NCBI GenBank assembly: GCA_016219645.1
Contig: JACRLR010000018.1
Coordinates: forward strand, 62,001 to 126,000
Length of the DNA stretch: 64,000 bases
Reading direction: 5' to 3'
Source of the DNA: Nitrospirota bacterium
Lineage (GTDB): Bacteria; Nitrospirota; Nitrospiria; Nitrospirales; Nitrospiraceae
Shown: positions 37,689 to 41,958 of the stretch, piece after piece
Layout: every line of letters begins with the position of its first letter
Numbering within the stretch: position 1 is the first letter of the stretch
The notes under the pieces: model-generated
Databases searched by the model: none
What the model was told of the DNA's origin: nothing
What the model saw: the letters and a program-made list of their open reading frames with translations, nothing else
Translations under genes and position numbers: made by a program

Positions 37689-38780
37689 ATGGGACTCTGT
37701 TGTGGAATGATTGGACTTCCGAACGTGGGGAAGACTACCGTCTTCAACGCGCTCACCGGCAGTGGCGCATTGGCTGCCAACTATCCCTTCGCGACCGTCG
37801 ATCCCAATACCGGCATCGCGCTGGTGCCGGATCCGCGGCTCGGAGTCCTTACCGAACTCTTCAAGTCGAAGAAGACAACCTACAGTACGCTTGAGGTTCG
37901 CGATATTGCCGGCTTGGTGGAAGGGGCGAGCAAGGGTGAGGGGCTCGGCAATCAGTTTCTCGGCCACATCCGAGAAGTCGATGCGCTGCTCCATGTCGTC
38001 CGCTGTTTTCAGGGAACGGATGTGGTGCATGTCAGCGGCGGTATCAACCCGCTCAGTGACATCGGTGTGATCGAGACCGAGCTCATGTTGGCCGATCTCG
38101 AGACACTCGACCGGCGAAAGCAAAAGACGGAAAAGAAAGTCCGGGCCGGTGATAAAAAGGCCGCGTTCGAAGTGGCCTTCATAGACAAACTGATCGGACT
38201 GCTAGATAAGGGCGAATGGCTTGGCAACCTGACCTATAGCCCCGAAGAGCGTGTGGTGCTCGATGAATGTCAACTGTTGGCAGCGAAGCCGGTGCTCTTT
38301 GTGGCGAATGTGTCGGAACAGGCAAACGCCGACGAGGCATTGGTCAAGTTGGTTCGTGAGTTCGCCGACAGACGCGGCGCACGAGTCGTCACGATCTGCG
38401 GCCAGCTCGAAGCGGAGCTTTCCACTCTTTCTGAGAGTGAAAGGATGGACTTTCTCAAGGAAATGGGGCTTACGGAATCGGGCCTTGTCCGGCTGACCCG
38501 TGAAGCCTACACCTTGCTGAACATCATTACTTTCTTTACTGCCGGAGAGATCGAATCGCGGGCCTGGCCGATTCCCAAAGGCATGAAGGCTCCCCAAGCG
38601 GCGGGCAAGATTCATTCCGATATGGAGCGTGGCTTCATCCGTGCCGAGGTCTATCACTATGACGATCTTATGGCCTGCGGGTCGGAGGCGAAGGTGAAGG
38701 AGAAGGGACTGTTTCGGCTCGAAGGCAAAGACTACGTCATCAAAGAAGCCGACATCGTCTACTTTCGCTTCAACGTCTAG
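37689..38780 (+). CDS. ychF: Redox-regulated ATPase YchF (Obg-like)
   Basis: A 363-residue member of the OBG-family that prefers ATP. It has the G1 loop GLPNVGKTTVFNALT near residues 9-23, DIAGLVEGASKGEGLGNQFL near 72-91 (G3), a coiled-coil insert, and a TGS domain at the C-terminus ending GKDYVIKEADIVYFRFNV. It binds ribosomes and is linked to stress responses in E. coli. Position after pth is the classical neighbourhood. Confidence 0.97.
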   Translation: MGLCCGMIGLPNVGKTTVFNALTGSGALAANYPFATVDPNTGIALVPDPRLGVLTELFKSKKTTYSTLEVRDIAGLVEGASKGEGLGNQFLGHIREVDALLHVVRCFQGTDVVHVSGGINPLSDIGVIETELMLADLETLDRRKQKTEKKVRAGDKKAAFEVAFIDKLIGLLDKGEWLGNLTYSPEERVVLDECQLLAAKPVLFVANVSEQANADEALVKLVREFADRRGARVVTICGQLEAELSTLSESERMDFLKEMGLTESGLVRLTREAYTLLNIITFFTAGEIESRAWPIPKGMKAPQAAGKIHSDMERGFIRAEVYHYDDLMACGSEAKVKEKGLFRLEGKDYVIKEADIVYFRFNV

Positions 38781-38828: not shown

Positions 38829-39007
38829 CAGGGTGTGCCAAGGCCCTTCGCTCCCGTGCCTCCCGAAGCGACCCAGCGGACTCTGCCGGGCGGAAACCTT
38901 CGGAAATTCCTTCGCGGACTCAGTCAGTTTCCGCTTTCCTTCCCGGCAGAGCCTCGCTGGGTCCCCGCTTCTCCGGCAACGTCCGCTCTGAGCCTTAGCA
39001 CACCCTG
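38829..39007. repeat. Family D palindromic element, left copy
   Basis: Arms CAGGGTGTGCCAAGGC (38829-38844) and GCCTTAGCACACCCTG (38992-39007) are complementary over nearly all positions. Within are further nested arms, GACCCAGCG/CGCTGGGTC and CTGCCGGG/CCCGGCAG. The core is similar to the reverse complement of 40234-40429 (shared CCTTC-GGAATTCC-like and GGGTCCCCG-CTCCGG segments) while the outermost arms differ. Confidence 0.65.
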
Positions 39008-39115
39008 CGGGGCAACTCACCGTCTCTGTTAACACTGGAAGTTTACAGAAGTAGCTTGTTCTGCCATGGAATAAAGCGGTGTCAGACCCCGTGTTCTCGG
39101 ACTCTGAGAAAAGAT

Positions 39116-39207
39116 GGGGGTGGGTGGGACAATCCCTTGCTCGCGCACCCCTCACTTCGGAAAGTGATCGGTGGACGCGCGCAGTTGGGATTATCCCAGC
39201 CACTCCC
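39116..39207. repeat. Family A palindromic element in the island
   Basis: Arms of 21 nt at 39116-39136 and 39187-39207 (ending ACAATCCC and starting GGGATTAT) pair with three mismatches. Cores TTGCTCGCGCAC and GGTGGACGCGCGCAGT enclose a TCACTTCGGAAAGTGA hairpin. A short open frame starting inside it at 39171 is not considered a gene. Confidence 0.75.
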
Positions 39208-39366
39208 GTAAAATGACTGCTGCCTTGCTGTATGGCCTTTTGAGCCTCATGCATTTTTCACTTTCCATCTGGGCGGAGTCTTGCGCCGTTCCCGCTTTTA
39301 ACGTGCCAATCGTTAGTGATAGTAAAGCTGATAGAATTGACGCCACACTTATGAAATAAATAACTT

Positions 39367-39552
39367 ATGAACCTAAATTTTCGACTCCCAGGTTTGGCTC
39401 AGGTGGGTGCCCTTTGCGACAAGTCTCTTACGAGAGAAGAGCCAGACGTGTTCCTTGAGAAGCAATACATCGACCAAACCAATATCTATCTGGTGAGGAT
39501 ATGGCACCAGAACTGCTACCATCAATATTTGGACCAGGGCGAGCAAGTATGA
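39367..39552 (+). CDS. Hypothetical small protein, 61 residues
   Basis: A short open frame 14 nt upstream of the nuclease-like gene and on the same strand. The sequence (starting MNLNFRLPGLAQVGALCDK) has no family I recognise and no membrane segment. AT-rich composition matches the next gene rather than the surrounding core genes. Ribosome site is weak. It may be a real partner gene or chance. Confidence 0.3.
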   Translation: MNLNFRLPGLAQVGALCDKSLTREEPDVFLEKQYIDQTNIYLVRIWHQNCYHQYLDQGEQV

Positions 39553-39566
39553 GTTGAAAAAACTCC

Positions 39567-40157
39567 ATGACTAAATACTCAGAAAGTACATTGCATGAGG
39601 TGATTGAATTGAAAGAGTCCGTATCAGAGTTTGATGTACTGTGCGCAGCAGCTCTGTGGCTCCAAGGTCTTGGAACCGTAGAGGCCGTAGTAGTATCTCC
39701 TGCCAGGGGGCAAGAACTATCCCTCGAAGAACAGAAGCGTCAACTAAAAGAGAAGTTACATCGAGTGGGTTGTGAAAATATTTCTTTCTCAACCAACGGC
39801 CCGGACATAATTGCTCGCGATAAGTCATGTATCTGGAAAGTTGAATGCAAAGGGCTTGGGCGTGGAGCCTCTTCCACCCTTGATAATAATTTCGATAGGG
39901 CCCTCGCTAGCGTGGTTTCATACTATGATGAACCCGCGGGAGAAGGGCACAGCGGTCTCTCAAATGTGATGAGCCAGCTTGCAAATAACGACAAGCCAAC
40001 GCGTCTTGCTCTTGCCTTGCCTAACTCCGACCGGTATATGAACCTTCTGAGAAAAAATGTTAGGCCAGCGCTACGCCGCCGTCTCGACCTTTGGCTTTTG
40101 ATAATTGACCCGCTAACAAGTTCAGTTGAGTGCTATAACCCAACCAGAGAATTTTAA
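39567..40157 (+). CDS. Hypothetical protein with a PD-(D/E)XK nuclease-like motif
   Basis: A 196-residue soluble protein I cannot assign to a named family. Residues 79-95 read PD, twelve residues, then ECK inside KVECKG: the spacing and flanking strands fit the PD-(D/E)XK core shared by restriction enzymes and related nucleases (Asp80, Glu93, Lys95). A preceding helix (EFDVLCAAALWLQGLG, about 21-36) suits the same fold. The gene is AT-richer than its neighbours and lies in a repeat-filled island, so recent acquisition is likely. No methylase or other restriction gene is adjacent. A small GAGTT/AACTC hairpin precedes the ATG. Confidence 0.6.
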   Translation: MTKYSESTLHEVIELKESVSEFDVLCAAALWLQGLGTVEAVVVSPARGQELSLEEQKRQLKEKLHRVGCENISFSTNGPDIIARDKSCIWKVECKGLGRGASSTLDNNFDRALASVVSYYDEPAGEGHSGLSNVMSQLANNDKPTRLALALPNSDRYMNLLRKNVRPALRRRLDLWLLIIDPLTSSVECYNPTREF

Positions 40158-40233
40158 ATAGCAATGGTGTCTGACATCGCTTCTTTATCCAATCTATTCT
40201 TCCTATAAGAACTGCATTGGTATCTCCTCAGCT

Positions 40234-40429
40234 GGTGGCCTGTGGGTCTGAGCGGACTTCACCGGAGCGACGGGGACCCCGCCCGGCGTCTGAAGAAGGA
40301 AAGCCGGAACTGACCATAGCACCGTGGTCGTGAGGCCACGGTGCGGCGGGAATTCCGGAAGGCTTCCGCTTCAGAGCGCCGTGGATGGGGTGTCGTGGGA
40401 GGTGAGAGAGCGAAGAGCCTCAGGCCACC
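40234..40429. repeat. Family D palindromic element, right copy, inverted
   Basis: Arms starting GGTGGCCTG (40234) and ending CAGGCCACC (40429) pair over about 18-20 nt with a few mismatches. The inside is an inverted relative of 38829-39007. A perfect hairpin CACCGTGG..CCACGGTG lies in the middle. Confidence 0.6.
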
Positions 40430-40464
40430 GGCTCCTGTCCCGGAAGCAAGGGAGCGGTTGAGCT

Positions 40465-40647
40465 TAGCCCGCATTATTCACGAGGGTTCGTGACGAAACC
40501 GCTGAGACGTGTTGTGAGACGGGCAAGCGCAGCCGGGAAGGAGGGAAGCATACTTAAACAGTATGTTGACCGACTGAGTGGCGAGCACGCCCGTCGGAAC
40601 AGCGTATCGGCGGTTGCAGTAGAAGCCTTCGTGAATAATGCGGGCTA
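40465..40647. mobile_element. MITE-like element with 19-bp terminal inverted repeats (family C)
   Basis: The ends TAGCCCGCATTATTCACGA and TCGTGAATAATGCGGGCTA are perfect 19-bp inverted repeats; imperfect pairing continues inward (GACGAAACCGC against GCGGTTGCAG). The 183-bp element carries no gene. One end resembles sequences either side of rnc (49208 and 50079). It looks like a non-autonomous transposable element or a large palindromic repeat. Confidence 0.6.
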
Positions 40648-40712
40648 GGCAGGCCGTCGTGGCAACTATCGCGCCGATTACTTGCTGGAGAACGAGTAAG
40701 CGCCTGGTTGGT

Positions 40713-41240
40713 TCATTGGGGGAGCCACAGGGTTTTCTTATCGGCATTCACTTCTGCTTTAAACTGACGGATCGCGGATAGTTTGAATGGCCATAAAAAG
40801 GGAGAATAAGACACAGCTACAGTGACCACCGCGCTCTCCAGTGGCGCATTGATCGTAAATCCTCGATGGCAAGGTGCGGTCGCTTTTCGGTGCGGAGCCA
40901 TGATGGGAAGTGTTTCTTCAGAACCATCAGTCTTATTGTCGAATGTCCCCCCTCCTTCAAATTTCCCTTCCTCTCTGCACACAATGGTCACTCCAAACAA
41001 TGGCACAAGCATATTGTTACTTACGATGAAGGGGTAAGAGAATGGATTGTTGGGTTCTTGTGGGGTGCCGACATCTATGGTCAGGACGGGGGCAAATGCC
41101 ATCAGACCGGAGAGAGAAGCGCATATCAGTATGGTGACAGATATCCACTTCACTGCTCGCTTAAGAGGTGAAGGAGGTTGGTTCGTGATGATGGGGGGGG
41201 TGGGCTCGCCGGCTGGTGTCTTTTTTTTCTTTTTTGACAT
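40713..41240 (-). CDS. Hypothetical membrane-anchored protein
   Basis: A 175-residue protein of unknown function. The N-terminus is strongly basic (MSKKKKKTP), then Pro-rich, followed by a single membrane helix (about residues 34-51, WISVTILICASLSGLMAF) and an extracytoplasmic domain with two cysteines (VCREEG and APCHRG) that might form a disulfide. The topology suggests a type II anchored periplasmic domain. The lysine run comes from a T-rich homopolymer stretch on the plus strand, where indels are easy. AT-richer than the core genes. Confidence 0.6.
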   Translation of the reverse strand: MSKKKKKTPAGEPTPPIITNQPPSPLKRAVKWISVTILICASLSGLMAFAPVLTIDVGTPQEPNNPFSYPFIVSNNMLVPLFGVTIVCREEGKFEGGGTFDNKTDGSEETLPIMAPHRKATAPCHRGFTINAPLESAVVTVAVSYSPFLWPFKLSAIRQFKAEVNADKKTLWLPQ

Positions 41241-41610: not shown

Positions 41611-41958
41611 ATGGAGCTCTACGAGTCTCTATTCATTATTCGTGCGTCTGTCTCTGACCAGGAGACCACGGCCTTGATCGAGAAGATGAAGGCGGTGGCA
41701 GAGAAGACCGGCGCGCAGTTCATCAAGTCAGAAAATTGGGGTAAGAAGAAACTTGCGTACGAGGTGAAGCGAGAACGGAAGGGGACCTACGTCTACTTCT
41801 ATTTCAGGGCGCCTAATGTCACGGTCGGTGAATTAGAACGGTCCTATCGTTTGGAGGACTCTATCATCAAGTTCTTGACCGTCCATCTCAAGAAAGAACT
41901 GGTGCCGCCACGGCCGCGTGAGGCGATATCAGAGGAGTTTGCCGGTGGCAGGATTTAA
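41611..41958 (+). CDS. rpsF: 30S ribosomal protein bS6
   Basis: A 115-residue protein of the small subunit platform that binds 16S rRNA with bS18. It starts MELYESLFIIRASVSDQE and has the NWGKKKLAYEVKRERKGTYVYFYF region typical of S6. CCAGGAGGATTG provides the ribosome site. ssb starts inside its last codons and rpsR follows, the common rpsF-ssb-rpsR arrangement. Confidence 0.97.
   Translation: MELYESLFIIRASVSDQETTALIEKMKAVAEKTGAQFIKSENWGKKKLAYEVKRERKGTYVYFYFRAPNVTVGELERSYRLEDSIIKFLTVHLKKELVPPRPREAISEEFAGGRI

Follow-up and report, generated by a model that had tools for sequence, protein, structure and literature searches.

A rare PD-(D/E)XK nuclease-like protein family with a member in the ychF-rpsF gap of a Nitrospirota genome

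The nuclease-like gene and its gap

The window analyzed here is a stretch of 64,000 nucleotides, contig positions 62001-126000, from the 3.65-Mb genome of a Nitrospirota bacterium. Within it, ychF (37689-38780) and rpsF (41611-41958), named by reading their translations, are separated by ~2,830 bp. The two genes are adjacent across the order, and the gap between them measures ~100-250 bases in the order's other families and 444 to ~3,000 bp in the genus of the window. Readings of translations indicate that the content of this gap differs from one congener to another: examples are a membrane protein, proteins resembling beta-barrels and further frames of unknown kind, and one congener has no gene there. 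When the window gap was compared with those of ten congeners by blastn, matches on the left stopped at 39245/39252 and matches on the right started at 40180/40201, which delimits a segment specific to this strain. A first-pass annotation had described the region as a small accessory island; since the gap genes differ among congeners, this description holds when taken to mean a gene-turnover spot between ychF and rpsF. The features of the segment are as follows.

39253..40179, no strand: strain-specific insert, without similarity to the gap of ten congeners
39367..39552, plus strand: 61-codon frame, probably not a gene (no homologue, family match or upstream counterpart)
39567..40157, plus strand: PD-(D/E)XK nuclease-like gene, 196 codons from the ATG at 39567 (from the open reading frame list, homologues, invariant residues and the fold of the homologue L018)
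39597..39602, plus strand: GAGGTG, possible ribosome-binding site, with a 6-base spacer to the TTG at 39609
39609..40157, plus strand: probable true coding region, 182 codons from the TTG at 39609
39804..39851, plus strand: codons for D80 to K95, the PD...ECK hairpin (from the sequence and model strands 81-84 and 89-93)

The 196-codon frame and its PD-x12-ECK motif were present as first annotated, with P79-D80 and E93-C94-K95 spaced by 12 residues. The AT-rich codons reported for the gene were likewise evident, as its GC content is 47.6% with a GC3 of 0.44, compared to 56.2% and 0.645 in the neighboring housekeeping genes. By codon-usage score, neither the 196-codon frame nor the 61-codon frame stood out from its alternative frames. 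The real start of the nuclease frame is probably the TTG at 39609 behind GAGGTG, judging from the sequence. Initiation at this codon would give a protein beginning MKESVSEFDVL, matching the starts of the homologues, whose N-termini lie a few residues ahead of a conserved glutamate. Residues 1-15 of the longer form, translated from the ATG, were of low confidence in the structure model.

The ychF-rpsF gap is packed with dispersed palindromic repeats, and these may promote its turnover. At 40462-40650 lies a near-perfect palindrome of 189 bp (fold z-score -13.3); numerous copies of it, with identities reaching 97%, are scattered over the genome, and it looks like a recently active MITE-like element. 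Inverted copies of another palindromic repeat flank the nuclease gene at 38829-39007 (fold z-score -8.0) and 40230-40433; related copies are dispersed in the genome and also occur within the gaps of congeners. The third dispersed repeat, of ~90 bp at 39117-39207, is again present in many genomic copies and adjoins ychF in genomes G012 and G004. The strain-specific segment is bracketed by a 17-bp inverted repeat, AAGCGGTGTCAGACCCC at 39074-39090 and GGTGTCTGACATCGCTT at 40166-40182, which might mark one end of a mobile element that was once present. A single gene-carrying transposon made of the flanking inverted repeats was considered and dropped, because the same repeats occur singly across the genome. 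No match to Rfam was found over the gap. A frame of 175 codons on the minus strand (40713-41240), with a K-rich start, one hydrophobic stretch and no Pfam match, is found in none of the congener gaps. In the corresponding gap of genome G024 (L084, ~860-1275), the intact ychF is followed by a second, partial copy of its 3' end, a sign of duplication at this location.

Conserved residues and predicted fold

Searches of the window protein against Pfam, PHROGs, NCBIfam, PADLOC and PDB sequences returned nothing above chance, and no Pfam family was matched at E-values up to 5. The NCBIfam tautomerase match (E 0.012) and a PDB sequence match to a designed protein were both taken as chance. When the family was compared with the defense models of PADLOC-DB (2023 version), only a chance-level match to Cas4 was obtained (E 0.051). 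Direct search with the window protein retrieved no relative from genome contigs, viral contigs, plasmids, phages or the 100 nearest genomes. The first true relative, L002, was found by a phylum-wide search in the protein's own phylum (39-43% identity, E 8.6e-18); a break interrupts its reading frame close to the C-terminus, and similarity resumes in another frame. Three other candidates from the same search (L003, L004 and L005) were chance matches with internal stops or frames within unrelated genes.

The most conserved piece of the protein, NNFDRALASVV, was converted to a DNA pattern and scanned over ~85,000 species, with one genome for each. All six matches to this pattern were homologues (tblastn E 1e-18 to 1e-29), two from Chloroflexi and one each from Chitinophagaceae, Rhodobacteraceae, Hyphomicrobiaceae and Phycisphaerae, with one of the six ending at its contig edge. 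Together with L002, this brings the number of true homologues to seven. Another pattern search, steered by an alignment that included two made-up rows, produced no match, and those rows are not evidence.

Members of the family are single-domain proteins of ~165-195 aa with the signature ECKG...NNFDRA. In the alignment, D80, E93 and K95 are invariant in all eight relatives at ~36-43% identity, as are W90, C94, G96, T104, N107-A112, A114, S115, V117, Y119, L147 and A150, and E21 is present in each of the seven sequences long enough to cover its position. The usual PD-(D/E)XK active site comprises two or three acids and one lysine (PMC1189080), and the bipartite (P)D...Xn...(D/E)XK motif of this superfamily is conserved throughout the family. 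Taken alone, the PD...ECK motif of the window protein is weak and within chance, with PD-x5-30-[DE]xK arising in 5.8% of shuffles of the sequence. The motif gains significance because its three residues are invariant among the aligned relatives. Nuclease activity of these proteins is suggested by the superfamily to which their sequences point.

The window protein was modeled with six homologues, and the same sequences were used for a model with the homologue L018 as the target. The window protein gave a model of low confidence (pLDDT 68.5), and a structure search with it returned no meaningful match; it shows the same order of elements as the model of L018, which was of high confidence (pLDDT 92.1, pTM 0.90, with the five models agreeing to within one unit). 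The best match to the L018 model was the XisH structure 2okf, aligned over 115 residues with an rmsd of 3.1 (Z 9.7), and the remaining top matches were XisH 2inb (Z 8.8) and PaqCI, a type IIS enzyme (Z 8.6 and 8.3), followed by SdaI (Z 7.5) and the NucS-type repair endonuclease of P. abyssi, 2vld (Z 7.4). Matches at Z 5.2-7.5 also include BsmI, BspD6I, Can2, FokI, YaeQ, NotI, McrBC and MspJI. Since unrelated folds reach middling Z-scores against L018 as well (LpoA 6.5, dehydrogenases ~6), we rely on the four highest-ranking rows and on the recurrence of PD-(D/E)XK proteins among the matches. PaqCI, SdaI and 2vld share their core fold with L018 but are larger, multi-domain proteins of ~10-16% identity.

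In both models, D80 (D66 in L018) opens one strand and E93 (E79) closes the next, so that the register of the hairpin sets the two acids face to face and K95 (K81) next to them. The first-pass annotation had proposed a PD-(D/E)XK nuclease-like protein in which these three residues would cluster on a restriction-endonuclease core. The L018 model does show the expected order of helices and strands, with an alpha-beta core in which neighboring strands carry the motif; its hairpin register would bring the three residues near one another, and the residues named are the ones conserved in the family. Neither a missing core nor a separation of these residues was apparent in the models. We are highly confident that the family has the PD-(D/E)XK fold.

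Distribution and distant relatives

Profile search detected strong members of the family in 2 of the 395 genomes searched from the window's own phylum, while in two further phyla (301 and 392 genomes) only the seed genome contained one. The gene was absent from all other congeners searched. No family member was found in the phages, plasmids and viral contigs searched, and a second search of plasmids and phages with the homologues as queries gave no match. No association of the gene with defense genes, phages or plasmids was found. The family is rare and widely scattered, an occurrence that fits genes that would move horizontally.

Weaker profile matches (E 3e-9 to 3e-4) led to a second group of apparently unnamed winged-helix-plus-nuclease proteins (L026 1489-2427, L027 1258-1893 and L028 1192-1803). 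Profile-profile comparison links this group to the window family (probability 98.6, E 7e-16) through a shared nuclease domain. In contrast to the window family, which has no N-terminal winged helix, proteins of the L026-L028 group carry a MarR-like winged helix at the N-terminus and are missing the NNFDRA signature. L026 matches the Mrr catalytic domain (Mrr_cat, PF04471) at E 9.6e-4, with 19.7 bits against a curated cut-off of 21. The window family gave no profile match to PF04471, and its tie to Mrr is via the L026-L028 group only. Beside both L026 and L027 are frames that also contain nuclease-like motifs (LVEVKRK; IFEAKRG), and L027 has a transposase-like neighbor as well. Another distant relative, of 164 aa (E 5e-6) and with GEDIHA...WILEVKG, is located at L095 1411-1905 in G026, a genome of the same genus; the gene that follows overlaps it, encodes 236 aa and has no Pfam match.

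Possible function and alternatives

Our leading interpretation, held with moderate confidence, is that the gene encodes a lone, horizontally moving PD-(D/E)XK DNA endonuclease, an accessory protein directed against foreign DNA that acts on modified or abnormal DNA in an Mrr-like manner. E21, D80, E93 and K95 would bind a divalent metal and cut DNA, and the gene would spread horizontally and settle in tolerant gaps. The first-pass annotation had reported no partner methylase, and none adjoins the window gene. With no methylase, a lone nuclease must spare ordinary host DNA, which suggests that its substrates may be modified or structurally abnormal DNA, like those of the Mrr type. Defense is favored over host repair by the distant link to Mrr, by the occurrence in scattered phyla and by the conservation of the active site, and the role of the lone nuclease is probably defensive. 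Against this interpretation, no link to defense genes, phages or plasmids was seen, the window protein itself modeled poorly, and the Mrr_cat match is below its cut-off and belongs to a distant relative. The neighbors of the homologues are also mixed, and several are plain housekeeping genes: those of L014, L015, L016 and L019 are housekeeping or unrelated genes, and L018 has a 176-aa gene without a Pfam match 34 bp upstream. A more specific proposal, which we consider rather unlikely, is a previously undescribed single-gene defense, where a minimal ECKG...NNFDRA endonuclease destroys modified or foreign DNA with no methylase, helicase or immunity partner. Under single-gene defense the gene would cross phyla and plug into turnover spots such as ychF-rpsF.

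Among the alternatives to a defensive endonuclease, a repair or recombination nuclease of the Hjc, NucS or MmcB kind, cutting branched or mismatched DNA for the host or for a mobile element, is somewhat unlikely. The fold class is shared with the P. abyssi repair endonuclease 2vld, MmcB-like phage models gave a match (E 0.015), and a chance-level match to Hjc was seen in one member (E 0.052). At the sequence level, however, there is no match to those repair families, and the gene is very rare and absent from the other congeners searched, unlike housekeeping repair genes.

The structural matches to PaqCI, SdaI, BsmI, NotI and FokI would also be consistent with an orphan type II restriction endonuclease that cleaves a specific unmodified site and whose methylase was lost or is located elsewhere. 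An N6_N4 DNA methylase gene is present ~430 bp upstream of L002, but L002 is itself a broken gene and the only homologue to have a methylase nearby; the window gene, L014, L015, L016, L018 and L019 all lack an adjoining one. A specific nuclease without protection should also kill its host, and we regard this alternative as improbable.

XisH is a recognized member of the PD-(D/E)XK superfamily (PMC1189080), and excision of the fdxN element requires both XisH and XisI (PMC4874684). As XisH is the closest solved fold to the L018 model, the family might be considered an XisH-like accessory factor of site-specific recombination. Comparisons with fetched annotated XisH sequences showed an order in common with the window family, namely a D...ExK hairpin, a helix, a LALAxP-like strand and a C-terminal strand. 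The profile-profile link to XisH is weak, however (probability 18), and no member of the family matched PF08814 (XisH) at E-values up to 1; the search for PF08814 in the window's own genome and those of the homologues gave no match, but the control gave none either. In addition, while xisI follows xisH in six of six plasmid loci viewed, no overlapping xisI-like gene follows position 40157, where the next frame is on the opposite strand and has no Pfam match, and no recombinase gene was annotated or detected in the gap. A role of the XisH type is thus very unlikely.

The proposal in the first-pass annotation that the nuclease gene forms a two-gene toxin-antitoxin-like or selfish module with the 61-codon frame, which stops 15 bp ahead of the nuclease ATG, is unsupported and extremely unlikely. 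None of the loci retrieved contains a relative of the 61-aa frame, which also has no family match and no counterpart, with no conserved small gene seen upstream at the homologue loci, and dozens of spurious frames as long occur by chance in the same stretch. Overall, what the first-pass annotation observed was confirmed, while what it made of these observations was partly supported.

The proteins described here make up an uncatalogued family inside a known superfamily, and they involve no new mechanism. The analysis adds to this superfamily a family for which Pfam, NCBIfam, PHROGs and PADLOC gave no match and which may have been described outside these collections, and its signature lets others locate further members. 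The ychF-rpsF gap is a handy natural site for following the gain and loss of small accessory genes in the genus. If the protein is a stand-alone restriction enzyme, it would represent a very small one-gene defense and a possible tool to cut modified DNA.
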